Shown: piece after piece, positions 9,314 through 49,999 of the stretch
Numbering within the stretch: position 1 is the stretch's first letter
Layout: the number at the start of each line of letters is the position of its first letter
Assembly: GCA_021733925.1 (NCBI GenBank)
Contig: JAIPJY010000015.1
Span: 1-64,000, forward strand
DNA length: 64,000 nucleotides
Reading direction: 5' to 3'
Origin: Prosthecobacter sp.
GTDB lineage: Bacteria; Verrucomicrobiota; Verrucomicrobiia; Verrucomicrobiales; Verrucomicrobiaceae
The notes under the pieces: model-generated
Told to the model about the DNA's origin: nothing
Database searches by the model: none
Seen by the model: the letters and a program-made list of their open reading frames with translations, nothing else
Position numbers and translations under genes: made by a program

Positions 9314-9826
9314 CTAGTTCGATGCCATCGGCGGGCTTTGAGCGGTCTTGTCCGTCTGCGCCACGAGGGTCTGCGCCTTGTGGCAGTTTTCGGGCATGGT
9401 GAAGGCCGCAGTGGCGTCAGGACTCGATGTCACGAGGATCTGCACGTTCTTCAGGCGCGGATTGGTCTGCTGCATTCCGGGAAGCGGCAGCGCATCGGAC
9501 ACCGTAACCCGTGCGGTGAAGATGGTGCTGGCGTCGCCCTGCTTCACGCGCGTGCCCTGGCCGTCGAATGAGAAATCTCTGCAGCCGCCTTCCTGCTGCT
9601 GCTGGACGACCTCGCTCCACTCACGCATCCGGTAGTCGGCGGCGATGGCCTGCGTGATGCGGGCCTCCGCAGTCACAACGCCCGACCGGTGCAATGTGTT
9701 CAGGGAGAGGGGAATCATCCCCACCAGTGTTACGATGGTTGACGCAGTGATGCCGACAGCGATCACGGTCTCCGCCAAAGAGAAGCCAGATGCGCGCAGA
9801 CTGTGGGAGAGGGCAGGTGTTTTCAT
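9314..9826 (-). CDS. Verru_Chthon cassette protein B, pseudopilin-like
   Basis: A 170-residue protein with GFSLAETVIAVGITASTIVTL at about residues 14-34, a clear prepilin peptidase and methylation motif with Glu at +5. A short soluble domain with two Cys (GGCRDF, PENCHK) may form a disulfide. Its ATG at 9826 overlaps the stop of gene A (ATGA), giving tight coupling. By analogy it would be a GspI-like minor pseudopilin. A prepilin peptidase is needed but is not encoded in this window. Confidence 0.85.
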   Translation of the reverse strand: MKTPALSHSLRASGFSLAETVIAVGITASTIVTLVGMIPLSLNTLHRSGVVTAEARITQAIAADYRMREWSEVVQQQQEGGCRDFSFDGQGTRVKQGDASTIFTARVTVSDALPLPGMQQTNPRLKNVQILVTSSPDATAAFTMPENCHKAQTLVAQTDKTAQSPPMASN

Positions 9827-12800
9827 GGAGCAAAGGTTTTTTTACAAATCACCCTGAAGCGATAATGGTCATCCAAGGCATCAGTCCGCGCCGGGTTGGC
9901 CACGAAATCGGGCAGGTCGGGATCGTTCGGGTCGAGATAGCGCTCGATGGTTGCTGAGCCGCGCTGCTCGGCGGCGATGGTGTCTTTGTTCTCATCCCAT
10001 TCGGCAGGCTTTGTGGAGCGGGCTTTCTTGAGCACCTGCACGCGGTAGTGGATCTGGTAGGTGTTCGACTTGGTGGTGAGGCGCGGGTAAAGCTGATTGT
10101 AGGGCGACTCGCGCGTGTTGTCGCCGGTCAGCTCGAATCCGTCCTTCTGCGTGTTCAGACTGCCGTTCCACCACGCGGTCATGTCCTTGTATTCCGGCGA
10201 CGCGCTTGGTTTTCCGCCGGTTCTGGGGTAGTAAGGAGGGGCGCTGGCCGCGTTCTTGGTTTTTGGCTTCGGCACCAGGAAGATGTCGCATATCTCCGAG
10301 GCGCTGCGGAACACGTCGCCCAGGTCAAAGCGCTGCTGAAAGCCTTTCATCGTCTCCTCCGCGTTGACCTCATAAACGGTGTCATACTTCAGCCAGCGGT
10401 CATAGCTCTTGTAGCACTCCTCGAGCTGCGAGCTGGAGGCCCCCAGTGTCGAGCCATCCTTCACCCAGGCGATTTCACAAGGCAGGGCGCTGACACGGAC
10501 ACTCCGCAGTGCGGCGTGCAACCCGGTGGCGCGCTGGATGTAGGAGAATGGCATGATCTGGTGGTTCATGTTGATCTTTCCCGCAGTCGAGAACGGCTCG
10601 CTAATCGCATAAGGCTCGACCACAGGCATCCAGAAGAGATCGAGCATGAGGTGATCGCGTGGAGCCTTGAATCCATAGTGATCCGTCTGGGTGGGTTCGC
10701 TGGTTGAGGGACGCGAGCGGGAGGGTGGATTCGGACAGAAGAGAAGTGTCTGCCATGGGCTGACCTTGCTGGCGTTGGCAGGAATGGGATGCACGCCCGT
10801 GGGCAGTGAGCCAAAGGCGACTGCGGAGCATATCTGCCGGTTGGGCGCATAAGACCTGCCGGTATGTTCCTCAGTAAAGCCATCCCGCGCGAAGTAGCCG
10901 TTGCGGGCGGAGGTGTTGCCCGTGATTCCTGTATCGTCGGGTTTGTTGATGTAAGGGCCGTCTTCAATCCGGCCCATGCCATTGTCCCAATCACCGGGAC
11001 GACCCGTCCCGATCGCATTGTAGGCACCATCGAGTTTGCAGGGGGTGGCGGGCTGGCAATCCTGCCAGTAGGGCACATCCCGCAGCAATCCATAAGACTT
11101 GTCTATTTTTGTCGGGGAACTGATGACATAGCCAGCCATCTGCCAAGTGTGCTGCCGGCCCGCCGTCGCGGTTGTGAGGTAGGGCTGGGAAAAGCCCCGA
11201 CCGTAATGCCCCGTCCAGGCCGTGCCGGCATGTCGCAGTGACTGTGCCTCCTCCATGGTGGGATTGTCATAGTCCGCGTGCTTGGTGTAGTAGTCCTGCG
11301 TTATTTCCCGGAGCGCGCACATCACCCGGAAATCGCCCTTGGCGGGATTTGTCGCACTGGTCACCACGGAGCGCACGGTGTCGCCCAGCAGGATGAGATA
11401 GTTCTGCGGATCGTTCTTGTTGAGCCGTGTCTGCAGGTCCCTGTAGAGCATGGCGTTGTCCCAGTTCTTGTTGGCGTCAATGCCTGTATCCAACCTCACG
11501 CGTGGCACCGGCCAGGTGCCTGTGGGATTCGGGAAGTTCAGCGTGGCGGTTTGCACCAGGGTCGTGTCATTCAACTGCCCGGCTGGTCCCGCGCCAAGGT
11601 GGATCTCGACGGTGATCGACCCGCCGGTGAACTGGAACTTGTCACTATCAGAGACATCCACTTCCTGGCTGACAAAGGGGAAGGAATTGGTTTCATCCGC
11701 CGATGCCCCGCCCACAGCCACCGTCTTGGGCGTTTTGCCAGACTTGTAAAACTGGGCGTGCATCGACGTATAGGCCGTCGAGTGCCCGTAGTCATAGGCG
11801 ACCCCTGCGGGAACCCAGGAACGGTTGACCGCGCCCGCCGCGAATCCCAGCGGCTTGCCGTTGGCTTGCCATTGATCGAGACCCTTGATGCGATAGCGCA
11901 CGTTGGGAGTGTAGGGCGGCATGCCGACGACGGGCGTGAAAGGCTGCAGCACGAGGAAGGCGCGCATCTTCTTCGTCTTGTCCGCCTTGTTGTCCTTCGG
12001 CGTTTTGTCCAGTGGCTGGGGTGGAGTGGTGCTCGTGTCCATCTCCACGTCCGTGGCCATGAACACGACGGAGGCTTCGATGATGGTGGGATAGCGGCCA
12101 AAGGCTTTCAGCGTGGCACCGAAGTTTTCCGTCTTCGTGCCCTCGGCCACCACCGGGACGGCGGACGCCTCCGCGAGGTAGGTGGAGTTCAACCCCGTAT
12201 AGGCACGCGGCGGAATGTAATGGTAATTGGGCGTGGTGTATGGGTTCGAGGCATTCACTCCCCACCGCACCAGGTCGAACATCTCCAGCAGGATCTGATT
12301 GCGGTTCAGCGCGCCGTATTTGTCATCGAATGTCGGGGTGCCGAATGCCGGCACGCCCTGTTTCGTGAGCTTTTGCAAATAACCGAAGACTGTCTGATTC
12401 TGCGCCAGGTTGAAGTCCTCCGTCATGCTCTGCGATGAGCCTTGCCTGCTCGAATCATTCTCCCAGGTGGATGCACGCTGGAAGCAGGCGGTCTGCCCCG
12501 CCGATGTGGCGCAGAGCGAGAGGAGCTTGTCCTTTGCGGTGCGTTTCGTGGCCTCGGCCTGGATGGGCCACAACGACACGCGCGGACGGTTGTACAAATT
12601 CACCTCCGGCGCGCGGCTGTGAGCCGTGAGAAAGAACCGGCTCATCTCCAGATCCGCGGCATCCACCGCCCCACCGGAGGGATTCACCGAGCGCTGGCCG
12701 CTCTTGCTGTCAAACTTGGAGCCGTAAAAGAACTCGTCCACCGAAGCGAAAAGCCGCTCGCGTTTGACGGGAAGACCGCCCGCGCTCGTGGGTGTTTCCG

Positions 12801-13884
12801 TGCCGCCCCTGGTGCCCTCTCCCACCAGACCGGAATTGGTTCTCGGCAACAGATCGCAGACGCTTTTCAGATAGGTTTGATAGGCGTCTTTGTTCGCGAC
12901 TGTGCCGTCACTCGACAAGTTGGGAATTTGCGGCTTGTAGCGGTCATCAAACGCCTGCAACACGGTGCTCAGGCAGGTCATCGCCGGGTGACCGGGGAAG
13001 CGCTGGAACTCGTTCTGCGCGGGAATGAAATAGGCGAAGTTCCGGTCCGACCAACCCACAGCACGGGGAACGTCCCACGGTGTGCCCTCACCCGCAGTGT
13101 TGAGGTTGACCTTGCAGGTTTCGTCATCCGTCCAGAAAGCGATGCGACCCACGATGGGATTGGCCTTCGTGACCACGCTGTCATCAAATTTTGCGTTCCC
13201 ACCCGTGCCGCCCGTGGGAACCACGAAACGGCCATCCTGCAATACATAAAGCCAGCGCACAGGCATGGGCAGCGGTTGCTCTGCGCTGCCGCCCGGCACC
13301 GTCGCGCTGGAGGCAATGCCAAAACCCGCAACTTTGCCTGACTTCCCAGCCCCGGTGGGATCCTGAAGCGCGGCGGCATCAAGGATGGGATAAACACGCT
13401 TGATGTTTCCTTGCGCATTGATCTGGGCGACAGGCTCGTTCATATCCGTGAACTGCGCGGACGCAAGCTTCCACTGTGCGAGCGTGGCGGCCTCCTCTTT
13501 CGCATCAAAGCTTGTGCCGGACTCCGTCATCTTGTCCGACGAATAGAGCCGCCACGCCGACTCCAGTTTCGCCCGTCCGCCAGGCCCGCCCGACTCCGTG
13601 CCGAAGACGCGGATCATGCCGGGCTGTGAAGCCCAGGTCTTTGTCATGCCCAGGCCGGAGGTTGCCTGCCGGATCTGGCCCATGACTATGCTCACGGGCA
13701 TATCCGTGAGCGTGCGCACCTGCGAGGACTGGCTGAAGGCCGACGAGGATCGCATCTCCGACTTTCCCATGGACAGCAGCGCCAGCACCAGCACCATGAG
13801 CAGGGCCATGATGGAAAGCACCATCACGAGCGCCATGCCGGATTGCCGGCAGGTGCGGAAGGCTTGATGTTGGAGAGGGTTCAT
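9823..13884 (-). CDS. Verru_Chthon cassette protein A, large pseudopilin-like protein
   Basis: From ATG at 13884 the protein has 1,353 residues; the frame continues upstream to 14010, but that part overlaps the adhesin gene. Residues about 14-40 are a hydrophobic leader (SGMALVMVLSIMALLMVLVL) of the PilX/GspK type, lacking a clear Glu at +5, as is usual for GspK. The long outer part is Pro/Thr/Asn-rich and without a recognised catalytic domain. It is the first gene of the A-B-C-D cassette and starts 40 bases after the giant adhesin gene, so all five may be one transcript. The cassette may build the tip of a pseudopilus that handles the adhesin; this is inference. Confidence 0.82.
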   Translation of the reverse strand: MNPLQHQAFRTCRQSGMALVMVLSIMALLMVLVLALLSMGKSEMRSSSAFSQSSQVRTLTDMPVSIVMGQIRQATSGLGMTKTWASQPGMIRVFGTESGGPGGRAKLESAWRLYSSDKMTESGTSFDAKEEAATLAQWKLASAQFTDMNEPVAQINAQGNIKRVYPILDAAALQDPTGAGKSGKVAGFGIASSATVPGGSAEQPLPMPVRWLYVLQDGRFVVPTGGTGGNAKFDDSVVTKANPIVGRIAFWTDDETCKVNLNTAGEGTPWDVPRAVGWSDRNFAYFIPAQNEFQRFPGHPAMTCLSTVLQAFDDRYKPQIPNLSSDGTVANKDAYQTYLKSVCDLLPRTNSGLVGEGTRGGTETPTSAGGLPVKRERLFASVDEFFYGSKFDSKSGQRSVNPSGGAVDAADLEMSRFFLTAHSRAPEVNLYNRPRVSLWPIQAEATKRTAKDKLLSLCATSAGQTACFQRASTWENDSSRQGSSQSMTEDFNLAQNQTVFGYLQKLTKQGVPAFGTPTFDDKYGALNRNQILLEMFDLVRWGVNASNPYTTPNYHYIPPRAYTGLNSTYLAEASAVPVVAEGTKTENFGATLKAFGRYPTIIEASVVFMATDVEMDTSTTPPQPLDKTPKDNKADKTKKMRAFLVLQPFTPVVGMPPYTPNVRYRIKGLDQWQANGKPLGFAAGAVNRSWVPAGVAYDYGHSTAYTSMHAQFYKSGKTPKTVAVGGASADETNSFPFVSQEVDVSDSDKFQFTGGSITVEIHLGAGPAGQLNDTTLVQTATLNFPNPTGTWPVPRVRLDTGIDANKNWDNAMLYRDLQTRLNKNDPQNYLILLGDTVRSVVTSATNPAKGDFRVMCALREITQDYYTKHADYDNPTMEEAQSLRHAGTAWTGHYGRGFSQPYLTTATAGRQHTWQMAGYVISSPTKIDKSYGLLRDVPYWQDCQPATPCKLDGAYNAIGTGRPGDWDNGMGRIEDGPYINKPDDTGITGNTSARNGYFARDGFTEEHTGRSYAPNRQICSAVAFGSLPTGVHPIPANASKVSPWQTLLFCPNPPSRSRPSTSEPTQTDHYGFKAPRDHLMLDLFWMPVVEPYAISEPFSTAGKINMNHQIMPFSYIQRATGLHAALRSVRVSALPCEIAWVKDGSTLGASSSQLEECYKSYDRWLKYDTVYEVNAEETMKGFQQRFDLGDVFRSASEICDIFLVPKPKTKNAASAPPYYPRTGGKPSASPEYKDMTAWWNGSLNTQKDGFELTGDNTRESPYNQLYPRLTTKSNTYQIHYRVQVLKKARSTKPAEWDENKDTIAAEQRGSATIERYLDPNDPDLPDFVANPARTDALDDHYRFRVICKKTFAP

Positions 13885-13924
13885 CGCAGGTTGGTTGTTC
13901 GTTATCAAAGAGCTGCCCACGCCG

Positions 13925-16900
13925 TCAGCACTCGCCGGAATGTTTTGTTGCCATGGTGGCGCGGGATTGGCCAAAACCGGCGGCCAAAGAGCGACGGCGA
14001 CGCAGGACAAGAGCCATGAGGCCGGTCAGCATCAGCACGGCGCGTGAAGATTCGGGCACGACGACGACGGTGATGTAGAACCCGTTGCCATCCGTGCTCG
14101 CAAGCCAATTGAGCCCGGCGGCCAAATCGGGAAGATCTAACGTCGAGAAGCCGCCGGAGAATTTCGGTCCCGCAGTCACGTTGCTCCAGTCGAGCAGCCT
14201 CCAGGTGTCGCCAGCAATCCACGACGAGTCGGAAAGGCCGGTGGTGTCCGTGACTTTCAAGGTGCCGCCGAGCACGATGCTGGTGTCGCTCGTGAGATTC
14301 AGCAGATCGTTGGTGTCAAGCGGGCTGGTCAGGTTGTCGGTGCCGCCAAGGTTGTCGTAGATGTCGAACTCCAGCGTGCCGTTCAAGGTGATGACTCCCG
14401 CGCCGCTGGTCATCAGGCCGAGGTCTTCGCCAACGATATCGCCCGTGTTCCCGATGCTGAGAATGCCGCCGTTGTTCACGGTGATGTTCTGCGTGCCGGT
14501 GACCAGGCCAACCAGGCCGTTGCCACCAAGCCGCGCACCACTTTGCACGGTGACGTTGCCGCTGCCTGTGGCAGATCCGCTGGTGTTGTTCGCGAGGAGC
14601 GTGCCGGCGCTCACTGTGGTGTTGCCGGTGTAGGTGCTCGTGTTGGACAGCGTCATGGTGCCCGTGCCACTCTTTGTCAGCGAACCGCCGCCACTGATCA
14701 CGCCCGAGTAGGACGTGTCCGCCCCGTTGCCGCCGACGTCGAGGTCAATTGAATCAGCACCATAGGCATGGGTGCTCTGGTTGTATCCGGTGAGCACCAC
14801 ATTGCCACTGCCGCTGAGGGCGCCGATCGTTGCCGTGCCGAGACCGGTGTTGAAAACGATGGGGCTGGTTCCGAACTGCTGGGCATTGCTCGTGTTGTTC
14901 CCGCCGAGGTTCACCGTCGCATTGGCCAGTGCGCTGGTGGCATTGATGCCGACGTAGCTGCCCCCGCCATTGCCAGCGCCCATCGGTGTAACCGTGATCG
15001 TTCCAGAGTATGTGTTGGAGTTGTTGGTGAAATAGACGATCGAGGTGTTGTAGTTGGCGCCGGTGTTGATGCCGCTCTGCTGAAGTGTCAGGTCAGCACT
15101 GCCGCTCACGACGCCGTCAAGGAAGAGGCCCTTGTTGATGTCGAAACCGCCGCCGTTGAAGGTTGATCCCAGCGTGCTCGCCGCCGCGACGTTGACGGTC
15201 CCCGTCAGATGCTGGATGCCGTCCTCCGCAAGGACCGCGCCTCCGTTCAGCGTCACTGCGTTGGCGATGTTGAACACGCTGTTGTTGTGGCCGCCAACGT
15301 TGGTCCCCAAGCGGAGTTGCGCGCCGCTGTTCACCGTCACGCTGCCTGCGCCGAAGGGGTTGATGTTCCCGATCAGCCCCGTGTTGCCGCCAGCGTCGTA
15401 GGCGAGACGACCGGCGCTCACCACCGTGCCGCCGCCGTAGCTGTTGGTGAGGTTGGAGACCGTCAGCACACCACCGCCTGTCTTGGTGAAGCCACCTGCG
15501 CCACTGATCCCGCCGCTGATCAAAAGGGACGTGTTCGCATTCACATTGACTGTGTTCGCACCCGTGAGCGCCACGGGGCCGCTGATCGTCGAGCCACCGC
15601 TCTCCTGGAAGATCGTTGCGTCGTTCAGCGCCACGGACCACGTAACCGCGTTGGTGGCGGACCAGAATCCAAGTGTCGCTCCCGAGTTCACGGTGATCGT
15701 GTTCGCCGAGCTGCCGCCGAGGTTCGTCGAGGTCTCAATGTTCAGCCGGCCATCGTTGATCACGACATGTCCGGCGTTTGAAACACTCACGCCCACGAGT
15801 GAGATCAGGTTCGCCCCGGTTTTCGTGAGGGTGAAGCCTCCCATGTTCAGCGTCGGAGTGGAATTGCGCAGATCCCAGCGCCGCGTGCCGCCGATCGTCG
15901 CATCAGCGGCGAGAACGATGCGGCCGGTGGCATTGATCTGGTCGCTGGCGCCGTTGTTGACCAGCGCGCCGTTCCCACCGACGCCGCTGCCGCTGATGGT
16001 GAGCACCTCAGTGCCGAGGTTCTGGCTGTTGATGTCGAGCGTCGCGCCGCTGGCGACCGTCGTGCCCGCAGCAACGCTGCCAAGGGCCGCGCCGTTGCCG
16101 GCGATCAATGTTCCGCCATTGATGTTCGTCTCGCCCGCGTAGGTGTTCGCCGTGCTGATCGTCACCGTGCCCGTGCCGTTCTTGACCAGCGTGCCGGAGG
16201 TGATGCCGTTGCTGCCGGAAAGGGTGTAGTTCTTGGTGGAGTTGTCGAATATGACGCTCGCGGGGCTCACCGTGGCGTCGTTGATGGTCACCGCCGTGGT
16301 GCCGGCAGCCGTGTCATTGAAGAGCACCTGATCGTTGGTCAAGAACTCCGTGCCGGTGCCCGCCGTCTGCAGTTTCCAGTTTTGTGCGCCACCAATGGCC
16401 GTGGTGGTCCATGCGCCGCCTGCCAAACCCGTCCAGACCGGAGTGTCACCCGTGATGGCGAGGGTGATGAAGCCGCTGCCAGCCCCCGTGTTGCCGATGG
16501 TTGCCGACTGGCGTGCTCCGAGACTCGTGATGGTGCCTAGCGTGAAGTCCGTATTCGCTCCGCTGAAACTGCCGTAGCTGATCATGTTGTAGGTGCTCCC
16601 GTTGGTCCAGGTGGGTGCCGTGAGCACATTGAGAGTGACCTGGCCGTTCACGGGTGTGGTCGTCAAAGCGTTGGTGACAGCCAGGGCTGCCGTGGAGGTA
16701 TCATCGACTTTTCTAAAATTGAGCGTGGCGGCACCATTGAGGATCACGGATCCAAGGGTCAGGGTGCTGGTGGTTCCGTTGCCGTTGCTCACAATGCCGC
16801 CGGTACCGTTGCCCACGGTCAAGGCGCCCACCGTGCCGGTGCCGTCCAGCGTGCCCTGCGTCAGCGTGATCGCAGTCGTGCCCGCCACCGAGCTGGTCTG

Positions 16901-19900
16901 GATCAACTTCGCGTCGCTGCCGTTGATGGTGATGCCGCTGCTGCTGTTGATCGAACCGGCACCGCTCAAGGTCAATGTGCCCGCGCTGACCAGGGTTGCA
17001 CCCGTGTAGGTGTTGGTTCCCGCAAGAGCCGTCGTCGTGGCGCTACTGTTGTGCGTGAGCGAGCTTGCTCCACCGATCACCCCGGCGCTGCTTTCCGTGA
17101 GGATGGCGCTGCCGCTGACGGTGATTGCGGTGCCGTTGACCGAACCTGTAAGATTCAACGTGCCGGCATTGACCAGGGTCGCTCCCGTGTAGGTGTTGGT
17201 CCCCGCAAGAGTCGTCGTGGTGGCGCTGCTGTTGTGCGTGAGCGAGCTGGTGCCACCGATCACCCCGGCGCTGTCTTCTGTGAGAATGGCGCTGCCGCTG
17301 ACGGTGATTGCGGTGTCGGTGATCGAACCCGTAAGATTCAACGTGCCGGCATTGACCGCCGTCGCCCCGGAATACGTGCTGGCACCTGAGAGCCTCGTGG
17401 TGCCGGAGCCTTGGAAGGTCAGGCCGCCGCTGGTGTTGGCAGCCAGAGACGCAGAGAGTGAGGTGGCGGCACCGTTGCCGCCCGTGAGGGTCACCGTCGG
17501 CGCGGACGTGTAGCCGGTGCCGGGGTTGGTGATGATGATGCCGGTGAGATTGCCACTGCTGTCAATGACCGCCACGGCGGTGGCCCCCGTGCCGCCACCG
17601 CCGGTGATGGCGACGTAGGGAGCTGCTGTGAAGCCCGCCCCTCCAGTCACGGCGATGGAACTGACGCCGTTGCCAGTCGGGACCAGCAGCCCCTGGCCGA
17701 TGGTGATGCTTTGTGCGTTGTTGTCGATCGTGCCGCCTTCGCCATAGACGAAGGCGTTGGTCAGACCGGTCATGAAAGCCGCGTTCGGCGTCGTGCTCGA
17801 TTTGAGCGTGCCGCCGTGGAAGTTGAAGGTGCTCGTCGCATTGGTCCCCGCTGTCGAAACCCTGTTGGTCGTGATCGTTCCACCACCTGCACCAACGGCG
17901 CCGAGGTTCACGATACCGGAAGCAGTCGCCACGTTGACGTGGCCGATTCTAAGACCATTCGATGCAGCTTGCCCGCCCAACACCAGGGAGCCGGAACCGG
18001 ACACGTTCAAGATTCCGGCGCCATTCTCACCCACGAAAATGCCGGATGCGCCGTTGTTGGCACTCGAGTTGTAGATGCCCGTGCCGGTGATGTTCACGAC
18101 GCCGATGGTGCCTGTGCTCGCGCCAAGCGTGCCGGCATTGCCAGAATTGATGTTGACCGTGCCGCCTGAGATGTTCCAGATGCCGACCGCGCCTGCGTTC
18201 GCGATGCCGGCCACGAGGAACTGTCCGGGAGTGACGGTGCCGCCGGTGACATTAATCACGCCGAAGCCATTCACGCCAGCGCTAATGGGACTGTTGCCGC
18301 CACTGATGACCGCCCCCGTGCTGATGTTAATGATCGCAGTGCCGCCGGCTGTGTTGCCCGCCGTGAGGGTGTTGCCGTTCCCGAGAGTCACGGTGCCGCT
18401 GATGTTCGCGGTTGCCACGCCGCCGCTTGCCGGCCCCACGATGATGTTGCCATTGGTGGTGCCGGTGACGTTCAGCGTGCCGGTGTTCTTGACCGTAAAC
18501 GCGCCGCCGCCGATGTAAGTGCCGGATAGCGTCAGCATGCCGCCGTCGATAGTGGTCGCGCCGGCATAGGCGTTGGCGGTGCCGGAAAGTGTCAGTGTGC
18601 CTAGACCGCTCTTGGTCAGGCCCCCGGTGGACGTGTTGAGGATGGCAGTGGAAATTGTTAGCAAGTCGCTCGCTGTATCCGTGCGGATCACCAGTTCCAC
18701 AGCACCGCCCGTCGTGATCCCGGTGCCACCGCTGATGGTGCCCACCGTGCCGCCACCGGATTTGATCAACCCACCGGCTGAGAGTGTGAGCGTCTGGGAG
18801 GCGTTCTGTGTCCAGCCAACTCCGCTTCCGGCCAGGTTCAGGGTCAGCAGAGAAATTGAGTTTTGAATGGCAGGCGTCGCAGTGAGTTTCACATGGTTGT
18901 CCGAAGTGATGGTGTCCACGGCGGCCGCATTCGTATCCGAGCCATAGGCCAGCGCACGGATAAAAAGGCCGGTGTCGTAGGCCGCATAATCGCTGCCGCC
19001 AAAGAACCAGCCTTTGTCGAGAAGCGCCCCAGTCGTCGGCGTAGCGCCAGCAACCTGGGTGAACACGATCTTGTTGGTGGAACCATTGGTGCCACCAGAG
19101 ACCACGAAGTTGCCCGTCGCACCCGCCGTGCGGGCCACCACGTTGGAGAAAGTGAGTGTGGCGGAGGTGCCCACGAAGGTGGACTGCACCGTGCCATCGC
19201 CCGTGCTGAAGGTCAGGGCACCCATGGCCTGCGCGCTCCCCGCAGCCTCATTGAAGTTGATCGCACCCGTGCCGCCGAAGGTGAGGGCGTTGCTGGTCAG
19301 GCTTCCCGTGGTGCCGTTGCCCACCTGCAAAGTGCCGCCACTGACGATGGTCGTGCCGGTGTAGGTGTTGGCACCGGTGAGCGCGAGAGTTCCTGCTCCC
19401 GTCTTGGTGACACCTGATCCGCCACTTGTGCTGATGACGCCGGAAATGTTGAGGTCGATGCCGCTTGCCGTGGTGCCCCGGCCGACATTGAAAATCAGCG
19501 CGCTCCCGCGGTTGACCAGATTCGCACTGACCAGTGCGGTCGTCGCACTTGAATAGGTGTTGATGCCAAGATTCGTGTTGAAATGGAAGGCACCGCCTCC
19601 GGTGGAGGTCACCGAGCCCCCGATCATGTTGAAGGTCGCAATGTATGCGTTGTTGCCGCCCACCGCGTTGTTGAGGGTGCCCCCGAATATGTTGACGGTG
19701 GTGACGGACACGTTGGCATTGTACCCCAACGCATCGTTTGCCGCCGTGTTGACCGTTGCTCCCGAGTTGATGGTCAGCGTGCCGCGGATGGCACCGGTTC
19801 CACCGCCCACCGACAAGTTCAGCGTTCCACTGTTGACCACGGTCCCACCGGTGAAGGTGTTGTAATTCCACAAGGCCAGCAATCCCGGGCCCGTCTTGAC

Positions 19901-21373
19901 CAGTTTCACGGCGGTGGCCCCGTTGTCCACGAACTTGGTCCAAATGCGCCAATTGTTGGCGTCGGCCGCGGCAGACGCCACATCCACAAACAGTTCTCCG
20001 CTGGCCAGGCCCGATGTGATGGCACCCGTTCCGGCCGTGCTGCCAGCCCCATTGTTGAGCAACCAACGGCTGATGCCGCTCAGGATGAGACCGCCGCTGT
20101 CCAGTGTCATCGTTGCCCCGCTGGAAACTGAAAAGTCACCCCGCACGACCAGCGAGTTGACGGTCGCACTGGTGGTCAGTGTGGCGGTGACACCGCCAGC
20201 AGATGGAGTCCTCCAGTTCTGGGTTGATGCGCCCACTCCGGTTTGATTGCCCGATACATTGGTATAACCGGTATAAGCCACGATATTGCCACTGCCATCG
20301 TTGGCGGCCCAATCAGCGGTTGCGCCAGAGAGTCCGGAATTGCCCACCGTTGCCCAGCCACCGAGGATGCCATTGGTGTTCGCCGTCGTCGTGGTGGTGA
20401 TGGCCCCTGTGACCGTGCTGAAATTCACCGACCCGCCGCTGCCGGCCGTCTGAGTCAACGCGCCCAACGCGAGCGTGTTGGTGCTCACGGTGTTGTTGAT
20501 GGACGAGTATCCGCCGGTCAATGTAGTGCCATTGAAGGTCTGCGTATTCGTCCCTGTCCTGCTGTAGCTCAGCGTGCCGCCGCCCATGCTCAAAGCGCTG
20601 CTGGAGCTGATCGAACCATTCGCGGTGCCACCACCGAGATCGAGCGTGCCGGCGTTGATGGTGGTCGTGCCCGTGTAGGTGTTCGCGCCCGCAAGCGTCA
20701 CCACCCCGGAGCCGGTGCTTTTCACCAATAGTGCCACCACGCCACCCGCCGCACCATTGTCGATGATGTCATTCAGCGTGATGCCGCCACTGCTCGTGGA
20801 ACCCACTGTGATCGTCTGCGTCCCGGAAGTCGCCGAGCCCGTCACCGCACCGATGGTCAAGAGGCTCGTGCTTGAGTTGGAGAAGGCGAATGCCGTTGAG
20901 GATGCACCGAGGATGACACTGGTGCTGGTGACGTTCGCACCGTTCGCGGTTTGAAAGATGCCCGTGCCGGTGCCACCACCGCCACCCAGCGTGATCGAGG
21001 TGCCACCGCTGATGGTGACGGCCACCGGGTCATCGAACGTGATGCTGTTGGTGAGAACCGCACCGCTGACCGTGATCGTACCCGTGGTGCCGTTCGTGCC
21101 GGCGGCGATGAACAGGTCGTCAGTGTTGGCCGTGGTGACTGTGCCCAGGGCCGTGGAACCCGTCGCATCCGTGCTCCAAGCCGTGCTGCCCGCACTACTC
21201 CAAGTGCCCGTCGCGGCACCCGATCCTGCGGTCGCGCCGTCCGTGTCCCAATAGAACGTCGCCGCCTGCGCGGAATGGAAGGCGGACAAGGCCACAGCGA
21301 GGAGACCAACGAGGGTTTTGAAAAGACCGGAACGATGGAAACGCGCGGTGAGGATGCTGGCGGGGTTGTTCAT
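13925..21373 (-). CDS. Giant autotransporter-repeat adhesin with PEP-CTERM-like tail
   Basis: The 2,482-residue protein begins with a signal peptide ([22 protein letters not shown], cleavage near residue 37). The body consists of dozens of autotransporter-associated beta-strand repeats of the form [19 protein letters not shown], plus Gly/Thr/Ser-rich solenoid, predicting a long beta-helix on the cell surface. There is no autotransporter beta-barrel. The C-terminus has VPESSR (from 2439), a hydrophobic stretch and RRRR (2458-2461), the three parts of a PEP-CTERM sorting signal, but 21 further residues follow, which is unusual. It is probably an adhesin or surface-layer protein. A palindromic motif lies 75 bases upstream of the start. 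Substrate and partners are unknown. Confidence 0.85.
16988..17353. repeat. Two 183-base tandem repeats within the adhesin gene
   Basis: Units 16988-17170 and 17171-17353 are nearly identical and exactly 183 bases (61 residues) each, a third start of the unit follows at 17354. They encode copies of the segment from [13 protein letters not shown] onward. Their likeness, compared with the diverged neighbouring repeats, indicates a recent duplication. Confidence 0.85.
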
Positions 21374-44001: not shown

Positions 44002-44029
44002 TTGATACTGTTCTAAAGAACAGTATATG
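44002..44029 (+). promoter_or_regulatory. SOS promoter with LexA-type box
   Basis: TACTGTTCTAAAGAACAGTA (44006-44025) is a near-perfect dyad: perfect arms around a central AA. It fits both TGTTC-N4-GAACA, which as I recall is the LexA motif reported for Verrucomicrobia, and the CTGT-N8-ACAG of E. coli. A -35-like TTGATA (44002-44007) and a -10-like TATATG (44024-44029) with a 16-base spacer enclose it. The predicted transcript start falls almost at the ATG at 44037, so the mRNA may be nearly leaderless. Confidence 0.85.
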
Positions 44030-44036
44030 GTGAGGC

Positions 44037-44495: not shown

Positions 44496-47400
44496 ATGAT
44501 TCTTCATTTCGATGCGGATGCGTTTTTCGCCTCGGTGGAGCAGGCGGCGGACACCAAACTGCGCGGTCGGCCGGTGGCGGTGGGGGGCGAGCGGCGCGGC
44601 ATCATCGCCTCTGCCAGTTATGAGGCGCGGAAGCTGGGCATCTACACGCCCATGCCGACGGCGAGGGCGCGGAAGCTCTGCCCCAGCCTGATCGTGCTGC
44701 CGTGCGATTTTGAGAAATACGAGCGGTTCTCGCGGCTGATGTTTTCGTACGCCTATGACTTCTCACCGCTGGTGGAGCTGGCCTCCATTGATGAGTGCTA
44801 CCTGGACCTCTACGGTGCCAAGCGCACGCGTGCGGGGGAGGCTGCGGCGACGATCCAGAAGGCCATCGCCCAGAGCCTGAAGCTGTCGGTTTCGGTGGGG
44901 GTGGGGGCGAACAAGCTGGTGTCCCAGATCGCGAGCAAGCTGAGGAAACCGCATTGCTTCATCGAGGTGGAGAGGGGGGGAGAGCAGGAGTTTCTCTGGC
45001 CGCTGGAAAACCGGTGGCTGCCGACGGTGGGGCCGCATCTTGCCGCCACGCTGAACACGGCAGGGCTGCGGCACATTGAGCACATTGCCCGAACGCCGGT
45101 GGATGAGCTGTCGCTGCTGGTGGGGCAGGGGGCGCCGGTGCTGCATGACTATGCCATGGGCAATGACACGCGCCCGGTGGTGTGTGATGCCCCGGAGGCG
45201 AAGAGCTATGGCGAACAGGACACTTTCAGCCAGGACACCACGGACCAGGCTTTCATCATCGCCCGACTGCGTGCCATGGCGGATACACTGATGCGGAGGG
45301 TGCGGCAGGATGGTAAAAGTATACGTGCCGTGTTACTGCGGCTGCGTTACAATAACATGGATGAGGTGACGCGCTCGACCAGCCTCGATGAGCCGACCGA
45401 CTTGGAGAATGATGTTTATCCGCTGCTTTCCAGCCTGCTGAAACGTGCCTGGGAACGACGTGTCAGTGTGCGGCTGGTGGGGCTACGTTTCACCAAGGTT
45501 TATGAGACTGGGGGGCATGCGCTGCTGCCGCTGGAGCAGTCGGACGTTACGCGTGAGCAGTTACATAAGATCGCCGGAGTGGTGGACACCCTGCGGCATG
45601 AAAACCGCAGCATCATGCGTGGGCATGATCTGTGGCTTAGCAAGCATCAGCATGCTCCCCGCCAGACGCTGCCCAAGCCGCAGATTATTGTTGATCGCAC
45701 GCCCCAGGCATCGAGCCGGGTGTTGAAAGAACGGCCGGGTATGGGTGTTCAAATAATAACGAAAAAATCGTTACTAAAAACGGTGTCGGCTCTAAATGTG
45801 AAAAGCTGCTACAGCTTTCTTGATTCCACGCTGACCATCCCGGCCATGATCGATGCGGCAGTCGAGCGGGGTATGACTGCCATGGCGATCACCGATCCGA
45901 ATCTGCACGCTGCCGTACCGTTTTTTCAAGCGGCCAAGGCGAAGGGGATCAGGCCCATTATTGGGGCGGAGTTACGCTGTGATCAGAAGCCGCTGCTGGC
46001 CTATGTGAAGAACCAGCGAGGCTACCAGAACCTCTGTCGGTTGCTGTCATTTGGTGACGTTGGAGGCGTTACTGTTGGGCAAATGCAGGACTATGGGGAG
46101 GGACTGATCGTGATGCCGCCTGGTGATGGTAATGTAACGTTTAAAGAAATACGATATCGTGATAAAAAGGACCGAGTTTTCTTCGATATCCTGCAAAGCA
46201 TGAAGACGCTGACCCTTTTGCACGAGGCGAATCCAGGCAAAAGAAAGGGGGATTTTTCTTTTCACGGATTGGGCGTGTTATCTGGCGAAAATTCTATTGA
46301 AGAGACGAGGGTTATCGATGCTATTCACGCAGAATGCGAGTTTGAGTTCGACTTCAAAACATTACGATTTCCTCGTTATGTGCCCGCAGATGGCAGCACA
46401 CCCGCGGCGATGCTGCATCAGCTTGCGCATGCGGGCCTGAGGCGGAGGTACGGAAACCTTGCGCGGCAGCATGAAGCGCAGTTGCGTGAAGAGCTCTCGA
46501 TCATCGCCGAGGTCGGTTATGAGGAGTACTTTCTCACCGTCTGGCAGCTGCTGCAGGAATGTGAACAACTGGGCATTGGTTGGATCACCCGAGGCAGCGC
46601 TGCAGACTCTTTGGTGTGTTACGCTCTTGGCGTTAGCAATGTTTGTCCGATCCGTTTCGAGCTTTACTTCAAGCGCTTTCTCAACCGTGACCGCATGGCG
46701 TTACAAAAACTGCCAGACATCGACATCGACTTTGCCCATGACCGTAAAGATGATGTGATAAAGTTACTGTTGAATCGTTACGGGCCTGAGCATGCGGCCA
46801 TCGTGGGCGGGTTCAATACCTTCCAGGCGCGCTCCGCTTTTGGAGATGTGGCCAAGGTGCTGGGGGTGGCTGAGAATGAGATCAGGCGGCTCACCGAGCA
46901 CATGCCATGGACCGATGCACGCCATGCAGCCGATGCCATCGCGCTCTCGCGTGAGTGTGATATCTCGGCCTGGCAGGAGGAGCCGATGCGCACCGCCCTG
47001 CTCATGGCCGGAATGCTGGATGGACTGCCACGCTACGCCAAAATGCACCCCTGCGGGGTGGTGTTGTCACGCGACCCGATTCGCGATCAAACGCCCACCT
47101 TCATTAGCGGCAAGGGTTGGCCGACCACTCATTTTGACATGGATGCGGTGGAAGCGGTGGGGTTGATCAAGCTCGACATCCTGGCGCAGGGTGGGCTTGC
47201 AGTTCTGCGGGACACTCAAATTACGCTCCGGTCCCAAGACCGGGCTTTGGATCTTTTAGCACTGGAAGTCGGCGCAGCGGGTGGGACGGAGGCGCCGCCT
47301 CGTGAGGAGGAGGTGGGGCCGTGGAGTGATCCAGGCATCTGGGAAATGATCGCCACTGGCAACTCGCGCGGGGTTCATCACATTGAGAGTCCGGCGATGA

Positions 47401-48761
47401 TCAACCTGGCTTGCATGGCTGATGTACGGGACATCGACCGATTGGTGGCCATCGTGTCTGTGATCCGCCCCGGGGCGGCCAATGGCCTCAAAAAAGTGCA
47501 GTTTGCACGACGGGCGCAGGGGCTGGAAAAGGTGGACTATATACACGAGAGTCTGGCGCCGGTGCTGAGATCCACCTTTGGCGTGGTCGCCTATGAAGAG
47601 CACGTTTTGCAAATCTGCGAGGCCTTCGCGGGGCTGGCACCGGGCCGGGCTGATGTACTGCGCCGGGCGCTGGTGAAGCATGATACGGCCAAGATTGCTG
47701 AGATTCGGGGGGAATTCATCGCTGCGGCGCGGGCGCTGGCGCGTGAGGAGAGTGTCAGCGTCAAGGTGTGGGAGCTTCTGGCGAGGTTTGAGGGGTATGC
47801 ATTCTGCCGTGCGCATAGCACCGCCTATGCTGTCGAGGCGTATCAGGGGGCGTATGCCAAACACTACCACCCCGCTGAGTTCATGGCTGCGGTGCTCACG
47901 AACGGCAAAGGCTTCTACTCAGCGTTGGTTTACACCCTCGAATGTCGCCGCCTGGGCATTGGCTTTCTGTCTCCGTGCGTGAATGTGCTGAGCGATGCAT
48001 TCATTGTGGAGGCTGTGACCGCCGACCACGGCACGCCTGCGACTTCCATGGGCAAAGCCATCCGTGTGCCTCTGAGGTGCATCAAAGATGTGGGTGAGGC
48101 CATGCTGGAGCGCTGGCGCAGTGAGCTTGCCCGCTCTCCTTTTGTGAGTGTGCGTGATTTTTGCCAGCGGGTGCGTCCGGCGGGGGGCGAGATTTTAAAT
48201 CTCATCCGAGCCGGAGCTTTCGACCGGCTGGGGGACACGCGTACGGCGCAGTTCTGGCATTGCCTGCACGCGGCCAGTGACAACGCCGTCTGTGCGGACT
48301 GGTTGTTTCGAGGCAGTGAGCCGGCGGTTTTGCGAGCGACCTGTCGCGAGGAGCCGACGCTGCTGCAGAAACTCCACGATGAAGCCGAGCTGTTTGGCTA
48401 CACGGTCAGCGGCCACCCGCTCGATCGTTTTCCTGAGGTGGATTGGCGCACTTATTGTCCGATCGCTGAATTGAACAGCTACCCCAATCAGTGTGTCACG
48501 GTCTGCGGGCTCATCGTTGTCACGCGTTCGCATCTGCAGCAGAACGGGCAGCCGATGAAGTTTATCTCGATCTGCGACCGCACGGGCATCATCGAGTGTG
48601 AGATCTTCGCCGCCGCCTACCGGACCTACGGTCTCAATACCGCGCGTTATCCCGTGGTGCAGATCACCGCTGAGGTGAAGACGTTCGAAAATGGGCAGGG
48701 GCTTACGCTGGAGGTGCGGCGGGTGGAAAAGGCACGAGCGGTGGCTCTCGCTTTACGATAA
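44496..48761 (+). CDS. Fusion of Y-family translesion polymerase and DnaE-type C-family polymerase
   Basis: One 1,421-residue frame. Residues 1-385 are a complete Y-family (DinB/UmuC) polymerase: Asp6 and Asp8 in FDADAFFASVE, Asp99-Glu100 in SIDECYLDLYG, YEARKLGI finger and a little-finger region ending near MRGHDLW. Residues about 430-1421 are a DnaE-type polymerase: PHP domain, then LPDIDIDF (Asp741, 743, 745) and LIKLDILAQGG (Asp894) as catalytic aspartates, VIRPGAANG, TFGVVAYEEHVLQI, and a C-terminal OB domain (about 1333-1415). PHP metal ligands are lost: NVKSCYSFLDS replaces H-x-H, and TDP replaces TDH. It follows the UmuD-like gene by six bases under an SOS promoter. I know of no such described fusion; DnaE2 and Y-family members (ImuB) normally cooperate as separate proteins. 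Confidence 0.9.
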   Translation: MILHFDADAFFASVEQAADTKLRGRPVAVGGERRGIIASASYEARKLGIYTPMPTARARKLCPSLIVLPCDFEKYERFSRLMFSYAYDFSPLVELASIDECYLDLYGAKRTRAGEAAATIQKAIAQSLKLSVSVGVGANKLVSQIASKLRKPHCFIEVERGGEQEFLWPLENRWLPTVGPHLAATLNTAGLRHIEHIARTPVDELSLLVGQGAPVLHDYAMGNDTRPVVCDAPEAKSYGEQDTFSQDTTDQAFIIARLRAMADTLMRRVRQDGKSIRAVLLRLRYNNMDEVTRSTSLDEPTDLENDVYPLLSSLLKRAWERRVSVRLVGLRFTKVYETGGHALLPLEQSDVTREQLHKIAGVVDTLRHENRSIMRGHDLWLSKHQHAPRQTLPKPQIIVDRTPQASSRVLKERPGMGVQIITKKSLLKTVSALNVKSCYSFLDSTLTIPAMIDAAVERGMTAMAITDPNLHAAVPFFQAAKAKGIRPIIGAELRCDQKPLLAYVKNQRGYQNLCRLLSFGDVGGVTVGQMQDYGEGLIVMPPGDGNVTFKEIRYRDKKDRVFFDILQSMKTLTLLHEANPGKRKGDFSFHGLGVLSGENSIEETRVIDAIHAECEFEFDFKTLRFPRYVPADGSTPAAMLHQLAHAGLRRRYGNLARQHEAQLREELSIIAEVGYEEYFLTVWQLLQECEQLGIGWITRGSAADSLVCYALGVSNVCPIRFELYFKRFLNRDRMALQKLPDIDIDFAHDRKDDVIKLLLNRYGPEHAAIVGGFNTFQARSAFGDVAKVLGVAENEIRRLTEHMPWTDARHAADAIALSRECDISAWQEEPMRTALLMAGMLDGLPRYAKMHPCGVVLSRDPIRDQTPTFISGKGWPTTHFDMDAVEAVGLIKLDILAQGGLAVLRDTQITLRSQDRALDLLALEVGAAGGTEAPPREEEVGPWSDPGIWEMIATGNSRGVHHIESPAMINLACMADVRDIDRLVAIVSVIRPGAANGLKKVQFARRAQGLEKVDYIHESLAPVLRSTFGVVAYEEHVLQICEAFAGLAPGRADVLRRALVKHDTAKIAEIRGEFIAAARALAREESVSVKVWELLARFEGYAFCRAHSTAYAVEAYQGAYAKHYHPAEFMAAVLTNGKGFYSALVYTLECRRLGIGFLSPCVNVLSDAFIVEAVTADHGTPATSMGKAIRVPLRCIKDVGEAMLERWRSELARSPFVSVRDFCQRVRPAGGEILNLIRAGAFDRLGDTRTAQFWHCLHAASDNAVCADWLFRGSEPAVLRATCREEPTLLQKLHDEAELFGYTVSGHPLDRFPEVDWRTYCPIAELNSYPNQCVTVCGLIVVTRSHLQQNGQPMKFISICDRTGIIECEIFAAAYRTYGLNTARYPVVQITAEVKTFENGQGLTLEVRRVEKARAVALALR
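45757..45773. other. Hairpin at the junction of the two polymerase modules
   Basis: TAACGA (45757-45762) and TCGTTA (45768-45773) enclose AAAAA, at codons for residues near 421-426. This is exactly between the Y-family and DnaE parts, in a locally AT-rich stretch. It may be a leftover of fusion or an mRNA structure; effect unknown. Confidence 0.5.
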
Positions 48762-48807: not shown

Positions 48808-48864
48808 ATAATGCCAGGCATTTAGTTTTGACTGTACTCGTTTTCTGCTTATTTTTGGCATTAT
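48808..48864. repeat. REP-like inverted repeats before the transposase
   Basis: AATGCCAGGCATT at 48810-48822 is a small palindrome. ATAATGCCA (48808-48816) pairs with TGGCATTAT (48856-48864), which overlaps the transposase start codon. They may be binding sites of the tyrosine transposase or an operator that occludes its translation. Confidence 0.5.
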
Positions 48865-49999
48865 GAAAGTAGTCCAAATAACTGATTTACAGGCTGTCCC
48901 GCTTGAAGAGCAGCTTGTGGGGGTGAATGCGAAAACGGGGCTCTATCCTGGCGCGCGGTCTTGGTCAGGTGGGAGGCATCGGATTCTGGGGAAGGGGCCG
49001 TTGGAGTCTTATTGCTACCATGTCATGTCGCGGACGTGTGGCGGGGAGGTGTTTTTTGATGAGGTTGAGAAAGAGGCGCTGCGGCGGGTGATCTGGCGCA
49101 TGGCGGAGTTCTCTGGGATCAAGGTGGTGACCTACTGCCTGATGAAGAACCATTTCCATCTGCTGGCGGAGGTGCCGCATCGGGAGATGTGGTTGCAGAG
49201 GTTTGAGGGACCGGATGGCGAGGCGAAGTTGATGGAGCATCTGAGGATCCTGTACAGCCGAACCTACATTGGTCTGCTGCGTGATGAGTTGAGCGATCTG
49301 CGATCACGTGGCATGACGGTGCTGGCTGAGCGGCGCATTGAGGGGCTCAAGAAGAGGTTCTGTGACCTTTCTTTGTTTGTGAAGGAGGTGAAGGAACGCT
49401 TCAGCCGATGGTTCAACAAGCGGCATGGGCGTAAAGGGACGCTGTGGATGGATCGCTTCAAGAGCGTGCTGGTGGAGGGCAAGGGGGAGGCGCTGCGGAC
49501 GATGGCGGCGTACATTGATTTGAATCCGGTGCGTGCGGCGTTGGTCAAGGACCCGAAGGACTACCGCTGGTGCGGGTATGCGGAGGCGTTGGGTGGCAGT
49601 CGCAGGGCGCAGCGTGGGCTGTGCAAGGCGCAGGGGAAGCCAGTGGACGGCTGGAAGAGTGCGGGCGCTGCGGAGGCGTATCGGTGCCTGCTGCATGCTG
49701 AGGGACGCGAGATCAAAGACGCGCAGAATGAGAAGGTTCTGAGGCGCGGCGTGAGTGCGGAGTCGGCGCGAGCGGTGCTGGCGGAGAAAGGGCAGCTAAG
49801 CACGGCGGAACTGGTGAGGCTGCGGGTGCGCTATTTCACTGATGGGGTGGTGCTGGGGAGCAAGGAATTCGTGGATGGGGTCTTTGAAGCGCAGAGGGAA
49901 CGGTTCAGTCCGAGGCGAAAAGGGGGAGGTAGACGAATGCCGGAGTCAGAGGATCCTTTTTACACACTGCGCCGATTGCGTGTCCAGCCCTTGGGCTAG
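48863..49999 (+). CDS. REP-associated tyrosine transposase (Y1, HUH type)
   Basis: A 378-residue protein with the Y1_Tnp domain: YHVMSRTCGG near residue 53, the HUH motif in MKNHFHLLAEV (about residue 93), and a Tyr in ILYSRTYIGLLRDEL (about residue 133) as likely nucleophile. RHGRKGTLWMDRFKSVLVEG and MAAYIDLNPVRAALV follow, both typical of RAYTs. The C-terminal 130 residues are a helical extension. It lies 101 bases after the polymerase gene and carries inverted repeats at its start. It belongs to the larger RAYT group found across Verrucomicrobia. It may be domesticated, as many RAYTs are single-copy. Confidence 0.9.
   Translation: MKVVQITDLQAVPLEEQLVGVNAKTGLYPGARSWSGGRHRILGKGPLESYCYHVMSRTCGGEVFFDEVEKEALRRVIWRMAEFSGIKVVTYCLMKNHFHLLAEVPHREMWLQRFEGPDGEAKLMEHLRILYSRTYIGLLRDELSDLRSRGMTVLAERRIEGLKKRFCDLSLFVKEVKERFSRWFNKRHGRKGTLWMDRFKSVLVEGKGEALRTMAAYIDLNPVRAALVKDPKDYRWCGYAEALGGSRRAQRGLCKAQGKPVDGWKSAGAAEAYRCLLHAEGREIKDAQNEKVLRRGVSAESARAVLAEKGQLSTAELVRLRVRYFTDGVVLGSKEFVDGVFEAQRERFSPRRKGGGRRMPESEDPFYTLRRLRVQPLG

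Follow-up and report, generated by a model that had tools for sequence, protein, structure and literature searches.

Gene organization at the locus

The DNA analyzed here, hereafter the window, is a stretch of 64,000 nucleotides from Prosthecobacter sp. (Verrucomicrobiota), positions 1 to 64,000 of contig JAIPJY010000015.1 in assembly GCA_021733925.1. On its forward strand, positions 44496–48761 form a single uninterrupted frame from ATG to stop, 1,421 codons long, whose product of 1,421 amino acids (aa) is, as read from its sequence, a complete Y-family DNA polymerase joined to a complete DnaE-type C-family DNA polymerase. The features in and around this frame are listed below; the residue numbers are those of the respective proteins.

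44002–44031, plus strand: weak sigma-70-like promoter, TTGATA-18-TATGGT (9/12 in the consensus scan), overlapped by the LexA box
44007–44024, no strand assigned: LexA box ACTGTTCTAAAGAACAGT, core TGTTC-N4-GAACA at 44009–44022, 12 bases 5′ of the autoprotease start codon
44037–44489, plus strand: S24 autoprotease, 150 aa, UmuD-like (a LexA C-terminal domain without the helix-turn-helix, HTH), with the cleavage site Ala34-Gly35, Ser72 and Lys108 (Pfam Peptidase_S24, 8.1e-22)
44496–48761, plus strand: Y-family/DnaE two-polymerase fusion, 1,421 aa (frame, Pfam, 33 distinct fusions)
44496–45671, plus strand: Y-family polymerase part, residues 1–392, with palm, fingers, thumb, little finger and tail (IMS, IMS_C, AlphaFold)
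44511–44513, plus strand: Y-family catalytic Asp6 (33/33 distinct fusions)
44790–44795, plus strand: Y-family catalytic Asp99-Glu100 (D99 32/33, E100 33/33)
45555–45647, plus strand: tail past the little finger, residues 354–384 (...SIMRGHDLWL), where a RecA-NT motif would be expected (likeness to RecA clear in deep relatives only)
45648–45785, plus strand: flexible linker, residues 385–430 (variable length, low pLDDT, higher dN/dS)
45792–46115, plus strand: PHP domain with its metal ligands lost (Pfam 6e-21, residue comparison)
46410–47186, plus strand: DnaE palm/thumb, DNA_pol3_alpha (Pfam 2.8e-66)
46722–46730, plus strand: DnaE catalytic Asp743 and Asp745 in PDIDID (33/33 each, aligned with E. 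coli DnaE)
47175–47177, plus strand: DnaE third catalytic Asp894 (33/33)
47319–47732, plus strand: DnaE finger domain (Pfam 2.5e-29)
47955–48245, plus strand: helix-hairpin-helix HHH_6 (Pfam 2.5e-12)
48495–48728, plus strand: OB fold (Pfam 8.6e-07)

In the hmmscan analysis, the Pfam domains of the fusion all scored above the curated cut-offs: IMS (residues 6–148), IMS_C (236–337), PHP (433–540), DNA_pol3_alpha (639–897), DNA_pol3_finger (942–1079), HHH_6 (1154–1250) and OB (1334–1411). The structure predictions agree with this division. In a first AlphaFold model, which covered residues 1–1200, the DnaE part was mostly at 80–94 in the predicted local distance difference test (pLDDT), with Pol III alpha (2hpi) as the top PDB match (E 3e-47). 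The Y palm was poor there, and hence residues 1–394 were modeled in a second job, with an alignment that included Verrucomicrobial DinB and UmuC-like proteins; this gave a mean pLDDT of 84.7 and a TM-score, by target length, of 0.87–0.88 against E. coli DinB (4r8u). The junction between the two polymerases falls at about codon 421, within a linker that varies from 33 to 101 residues across the 33 distinct fusions described below and that is unordered in the model (residues 370–428 at pLDDT below 50).

Distribution and reality of the fusion

Among the loci examined (L, loci; G, genomes; C, places in the window's own genome), 52 complete fused frames were found, which represent 33 distinct fusions including the window copy and its two paralogues. 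The window's own genome carries three full copies, the other two being 78% identical to the window copy. When named genomes were scanned with a pattern, 18 loci matched: 17 have titles that name Verrucomicrobia(ceae) or a genus presumably belonging there, and one is from an uncultured bacterium. A complete fused frame exists in 12 of these 18 loci, among them that of a named strain, Brevifollis gellanilyticus NBRC 108608 (L012); the frame of L014 ends about 130 residues early, and in the other six loci the frame is truncated at a contig end, present as a C-terminal piece or, in L010, broken by a stop. Matches at E ≤ 1e-100 were found in 37 of 288 genomes in the order-wide search, fragments among them, and in 5 of 387 genomes in the phylum-wide search, the own genome included. 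Outside the order, G584 carries a fused frame, the Y frame of G544 continues into the PHP part and then runs off the contig end, and G291 has the DnaE part alone within the 10 kb examined. The fused state is present in several families and more than one class of the phylum.

The search was also extended to mobile elements. Among 1,325 matching phage records, none had one place covering 80% of the fusion query, and the five stretches matched in a viral-contig scan with two peptide patterns included no relative. Six plasmid records cover 80% of the query among the best 5,000 by score; in all nine plasmid records opened (six with at least 80% coverage and three below), the Y and DnaE parts are separate frames. 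Outside the phylum, no fusion was seen in the plasmids opened; the chromosomes of other phyla were covered by the named-genome scan, which picks up close relatives only.

The window lies in a draft genome of 127 contigs and broken relatives exist (L010/L055, L101), so that an artefact of assembly or gene calling, or a decaying pseudogene, has to be considered. This explanation is scarcely credible in view of the 33 distinct intact fusions, the named strain, the three copies in the own genome and the strong purifying selection described below; chance or assembly error in particular is ruled out by the first three of these. The fusion is real and old. The sequence-only reading of the window had proposed a natural fusion of these two families and had named separate genes merged by mistake as the alternative: the single frame with both domain sets and the 33 distinct fusions that hold both polymerases in one protein bear out the former and rule out the latter.

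Several incomplete forms were also observed. The copy of L010/L055 has one stop codon and that of L101 consists of two overlapping frames, which reflects either decay or errors in draft sequences. At L124:1957–3354 (own genome C9:72739–73020), a 92-residue piece, 78% identical to residues 105–196 of the fusion, sits in a 465-aa frame with WGR, DNA-ligase (below cut-off) and LamG_3 matches; this frame is perhaps a mosaic remnant of a further fusion copy. In genome G082, three frames on two contigs (L088:4016–6853, L089:1935–4012) encode the Y part, a PHP protein of 263 aa and the palm-to-OB part; the frame of the palm-to-OB part has its own LexA-box core (L088:3978–3991) and starts with in-frame 30-residue repeats. 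Judging by its sequence, this arrangement is a split or rearranged fusion.

Kinship of the two polymerase parts

Two rounds of trees were made. The first Y and DnaE trees took in 22 of the 33 fusions; five long inactive Y rows were removed for the second Y tree, and the DnaE piece of G082 and 14 of the 22 fusion rows for the second DnaE tree. In the DnaE tree, the fusions together with G291 are sister to the Y-adjacent DnaE proteins of Bacteroidota and Desulfosarcina with a support of 100/99, and the quick first tree agrees. Two other origins of the DnaE part were rejected: grouping with ImuC, the ImuB-type DnaE2, by the approximately unbiased test (p 2e-5), and duplication of DnaE1 by the tree (the best NCBIfam DnaE1 model gives 555 bits and the error-prone model 446). 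For the Y part, the fusions group with the Bacteroidota PolY proteins at only 90/77, and alternative groupings (p 0.18–0.19) are not rejected; the first Y tree, which included the long inactive rows, did not resolve this grouping. An assignment of the Y part to UmuC was rejected by a 100/99 branch that separates UmuC from the Y part, DinB and the Bacteroidota PolY proteins.

The DnaE of a Streptomyces plasmid, of a kind filed as DnaE2B in a 2026 survey (PMC12926913; here and below, publications are cited for the parts of their text that were at hand), falls outside the clade of the fusions and Bacteroidota; the label DnaE2B is that of the survey. Since the Desulfosarcina Y protein beside DnaE has lost its catalytic residues, an active Y partner is not general in the sister group. 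The neighboring polY and dnaE genes share 4 bases in one Bacteroidota plasmid and 1 base in another, and such an overlap is a natural starting point for a fusion.

Conservation of the active sites and selection

D6, D99 and E100 of the fusion align with the D, D and E of E. coli DinB, and D743, D745 and D894 align with three Asp of E. coli DnaE, which we take to be the catalytic ones. Among the 33 distinct fusions, D6, D99 and E100 are kept in 33, 32 and 33, respectively, and each of the three DnaE residues in 33. At the Y-part position that we regard as the steric gate, an aromatic residue is always found (F in 30, Y in 3). In one alignment with the fusions, the D/D/E triad is partly or wholly lost in the Y proteins of Novosphingobium (ImuB), Manganitrophus, Streptomyces, Desulfosarcina and Verrucomicrobial G036, while it is kept in DinB, UmuC, the Bacteroidota PolY proteins and the fusions; for the DinB of L123, the chosen gene start removes the first Asp. 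The three Asp of DnaE are kept in all 27 rows compared. The PHP motif, LHLHT...TDH in the DnaE1 of the own genome, reads LNVKS...TDP in the window fusion, at least three His being lost. The reading from the window alone that both polymerases keep their catalytic residues, and that the PHP metal ligands have disappeared, is upheld, and the homologues keep both sites as well.

The ratio of nonsynonymous to synonymous substitution rates (dN/dS) was calculated for the window copy against two close relatives and two paralogues, and for one paralogue against the other; dS to the paralogues is high, so that those ratios are rough. It amounts to 0.04–0.09 for the Y part, 0.05–0.06 for the DnaE palm/fingers, 0.08–0.15 for PHP (one of the five comparisons not computable) and 0.12–0.16 for the C-terminal part; the linker has 0.27–0.78 in the three comparisons out of five that yielded a value. 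Because dN/dS is low in both polymerase parts and higher in the linker, both parts are evidently selected as proteins and the tether much less so.

These data bear on how the labor is divided between the two parts. DnaE might be the working translesion polymerase, with the Y part mainly a scaffold for recruitment or regulation, like ImuB, whose site is kept for occasional lesions. Such a division exists in the ImuA-ImuB-DnaE2 system, where the Y protein is described as catalytically inactive and DnaE2 as the mutagenic polymerase (PMC6511836), and a DnaE part that has lost its PHP site and stands away from DnaE1 in the tree would suit it. We nevertheless judge it rather unlikely, as the Y part keeps its catalytic residues (D99 in 32/33) and the steric-gate aromatic at a dN/dS of 0.04–0.09, whereas the ImuB-type proteins compared have lost theirs. 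Alternatively, the two polymerases might act independently on different lesions, and the fusion would only fix co-expression, stoichiometry and clamp access. The variable length of the linker and its lack of order in the model are in keeping with this, and the overlapping separate genes of the two Bacteroidota plasmids indicate that co-expression alone requires no fusion. The spread of the fused state over several families and more than one class, despite a freely changing linker, suggests instead an advantage in cis, and independent action is improbable.

LexA box and the upstream autoprotease

The sequence-only reading was right about the fusion and overlooked what lies directly upstream of it: the gene of the UmuD-like autoprotease and the LexA box. 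The core TGTTC-N4-GAACA, which was seen in the upstream alignment of the fusion loci, is reportedly the LexA motif of Verrucomicrobia. It matches once in the window, where 0.03 matches are expected. The own genome (7.3 Mb, 93% complete) has seven exact core sites versus two for the reversed control pattern: they lie at the three copies of the S24-fusion operon, recA (C98), lexA (C58) and a UmuC-like gene (C123), and the seventh, inside a frame on C47, is probably due to chance. The core in front of the fusion operon is the same as that of recA and lexA in this genome, which points to membership in the SOS regulon. Two LexA genes with LexA_DNA_bind and S24 exist in this genome (C53:8579–8932 and C58:3143–3490), and the core is found only at the start of the C58 gene. 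The promoter overlapped by the box is weak, since the scan of the region found three where 1.7 are expected.

The exact core occurs upstream of 24 of the 33 distinct fusions: 22 at 486–494 bases before the fusion start, L125 at 572, and L064 at 25 with no S24 gene between. The nine without it comprise six deep LexA-bearing relatives, L070 and L098, which have no S24 gene, and L100, where the contig ends. In these six relatives (L023, L037, L038, L093, L099 and L102), a complete LexA, with LexA_DNA_bind and S24 above cut-off, is encoded upstream of the fusion. No exact core precedes this LexA, and other palindromes were seen by eye in some of them; their LexA is possibly a local repressor with its own motif.

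The window S24 gene ends six bases before the ATG of the fusion, and a Shine-Dalgarno-like AAGGTGA overlaps its stop codon (by eye). Of the 33 fusions, 29 have an S24 gene upstream, and so has a thirtieth, L039, on its longer locus L093; 4–16 bases separate the two genes, apart from L125 (106) and L039 (90). The available sequence of L064, L070/L090 and L098 (3/33) contains no S24 gene. In the 29 upstream S24 genes, Ala-Gly and Ser are kept in all and Lys in 28. From residue 27 on, the window S24 shares 52% identity with the C58 LexA and 30% with E. coli UmuD; the root of the S24 tree cannot be placed, its support being too weak. In the window's clade, the S24 part and a short N-terminal arm remain, and the DNA-binding domain is absent. 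The 150-aa start is likely to hold also for L057 and L058, because their longer frames begin before or at the LexA box and that of L057 contains no HTH.

The tail of the Y part was compared with the RecA-NT motif. The likeness is clear in L098, L099 and L102 (0 of 1000 shuffles) and suggestive in L064, L023 and L100 (9, 17 and 34 of 1000), and the best RecA match lies within residues 1–60 in 13 of 33 tails versus 96 of 631 control windows. As a general feature, the motif is unsupported in the window's clade. The tail probably binds something there, since RSIMRGHDLWL is conserved in this clade.

Neighboring genes and polymerase complement

In 11 of 31 loci, one of the two genes closest to the fusion on its upstream side encodes an SOS-response-associated peptidase (SRAP), a lower bound as several loci are short upstream; all 11 were confirmed by Pfam, L015 and L016 with identical scores. 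A GIY-YIG nuclease gene overlaps the fusion stop in the C9 copy of the own genome and in L126. The window copy has a VIT-family gene on one side and, on the other, a gene for a Y1 (REP-type) transposase. The latter (48863–49999), directly 3′ of the fusion, scores above the Pfam cut-off and below that of NCBIfam REP_Tyr_transpos; it might have to do with how the three fusion copies came to be scattered.

In 56 related genomes, of which 18 carry the fusion, whole or as a large piece, and 16 a DnaE2 above cut-off, the fusion and a full DnaE2 (NF004225 above cut-off) occur together only once (Fisher p 0.011; p 0.017 among 43 good genomes). In this count, G012, with a 78-residue piece, was scored as negative for the fusion, whereas G021 and G030, which likewise have just pieces, were scored as positive. 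The fusion was also considered as a substitute for standalone DinB, and this was rejected: DinB is present in 7 of the 18 fusion genomes, with no association (p 0.39). The C-family matches of the own genome are DnaE1 and the three fusions only, and its Y-family matches are the three fusions, the UmuC-like gene and one fragment. As for ImuA, there is a single RecA-family match in the own genome, and the model used may miss ImuA. The fusion gave no Pfam match beyond the domains listed above, in searches not aimed at ImuB-C.

Elsewhere in the window, two frames of 1,395 and 2,482 aa on the minus strand (9823–14010 and 13925–21373) overlap by 86 bases.

Proposed mechanism

Lesion bypass is usually thought to require a change of polymerase at the primer end. 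On the whole, we favor the view that the locus encodes an SOS-induced, single-chain mutasome of two polymerases with a two-level control like that of Pol V. DNA damage would lead to the cleavage of LexA on the box at 44007–44024, and thereby to the expression of a two-gene operon composed of the UmuD-like S24 protein and the fusion. Activated RecA would then induce the S24 protein to cut itself at Ala34-Gly35. By analogy with UmuD′ and UmuC, the cut product may bind the Y part or its tail and license the Y part, which would insert a nucleotide opposite the lesion; the DnaE part, held on the flexible linker and lacking PHP proofreading, would take over the primer end and extend it. The single-chain fusion would thus stand in for the polymerase exchange required by two-gene systems. 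We infer the repression, the autocleavage, the binding of the cut product and the insertion followed by extension; that one molecule both inserts and extends is plausible.

Several observations weigh against this view. Fusion and autoprotease do not always go together, as no S24 gene is present in the available sequence of three of the 33, and the S24 protein of L100 has Arg for the catalytic Lys. Asp99 is replaced by Glu in L033, the sole exception among the 33. With regard to recruitment, the RecA-NT likeness is not recognizable in the window copy (375 of 1000 shuffles), and, by eye, the Y part has what looks like a degenerate clamp-binding motif. As to the avoidance of DnaE2, it is not significant within the genus alone (p 0.20), and the genomes are non-independent. 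In addition, G033 has the fusion together with a DnaE2 that is broken into two frames and scores below cut-off; this DnaE2 was left out of the count.

If a two-polymerase mutasome is indeed encoded here, one molecule could carry the copying of damaged DNA from the first step past the lesion to the last. Since nature has joined an inserter-type to an extender-type polymerase and purifying selection acts on both, the hand-over becomes testable in one protein by means of point mutations. The locus also suggests a second way by which a UmuD may have arisen from LexA. The fullest form of this idea is held tentatively, with slightly more doubt than belief: a Pol V-like machine in which an inserter and an extender of two unrelated families form one polypeptide, switched on by a LexA-derived UmuD without a DNA-binding domain, so that the switching during bypass would be an intramolecular hand-over.

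Comparison with known systems

The 2026 survey lists 11 types of mutasomes (PMC12926913). In the parts at hand, this survey and that of 2019 (PMC6511836) describe PolY and DnaE2B as separate proteins and mention no fusion of PolY with DnaE and no UmuD-like partner for a DnaE2; the string "fus" occurs at four places in the main text of the former, all on other matters. The literature search gave no title or abstract start describing a Y/DnaE fusion, and the portions at hand of a 2013 survey of C-family polymerases and of a 2013 paper on SRAP and ImuB-C make no mention of one. The latter does describe SRAP in one neighborhood with DinB and, in certain cases, also a DnaE paralogue. A single chain of PolY and DnaE accompanied by a UmuD-like protein is a composition absent from the 2026 survey as far as the parts at hand go.

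The sequence-only reading contrasted the fusion with known mutasomes on the ground that the latter use a dead Y-family protein. This difference stands for ImuB and is too sharp in general, as pairs of PolY and DnaE2 that are apparently both active, encoded by separate genes, are reported from Bacteroidetes (PMC6511836, Timinskas et al. 2019; PMC12926913, 2026). The ImuA-ImuB-DnaE2 (ImuC) system resembles the present locus in combining a Y-family-like protein with an error-prone DnaE behind a LexA box, whereas here the Y part keeps its catalytic residues, the DnaE part lies outside the ImuB-coupled clade, and the two are fused.

A closer likeness is seen to the putative DnaE2B-PolY-RecA mutasome of Bacteroidetes, in which, according to the published description, an active Y polymerase and an error-prone DnaE are encoded side by side. 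The Bacteroidota plasmid loci compared here probably correspond to this published DnaE2B-PolY group, and their PolY-coupled DnaE is the sister group of the DnaE part of the fusion (100/99). As at the fusion loci, a SRAP gene (L077, L079) or an HTH-S24 repressor gene (L078, L079) may adjoin. The Bacteroidota module, however, consists of two separate genes and is accompanied by an S24 repressor of the HTH_3 type, whereas the fusion is one chain with an S24 protein without a DNA-binding domain directly upstream; and the RecA-NT motif of that module cannot be recognized in the window's copy of the fusion.

As for the autoprotease, UmuDAb of Acinetobacter (PMC4807011, PMC8565304), as described in the parts at hand, is also an S24 protein whose build is intermediate between those of LexA and UmuD, and it is linked to error-prone polymerases. 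It is a UmuD bearing a DNA-binding domain, whereas here a whole LexA is encoded in the deep relatives and that domain is missing in the window's clade. DNA polymerase V (UmuD′2C) shares with the present locus an S24 autoprotease without HTH just upstream of an active Y polymerase and an SOS box in front, and the window S24 keeps the cleavage site, Ser and Lys. The two differ in the polymerase itself: the Y protein of DNA polymerase V is UmuC, whereas the Y part of the fusion is not of the UmuC type and is joined to a DnaE.

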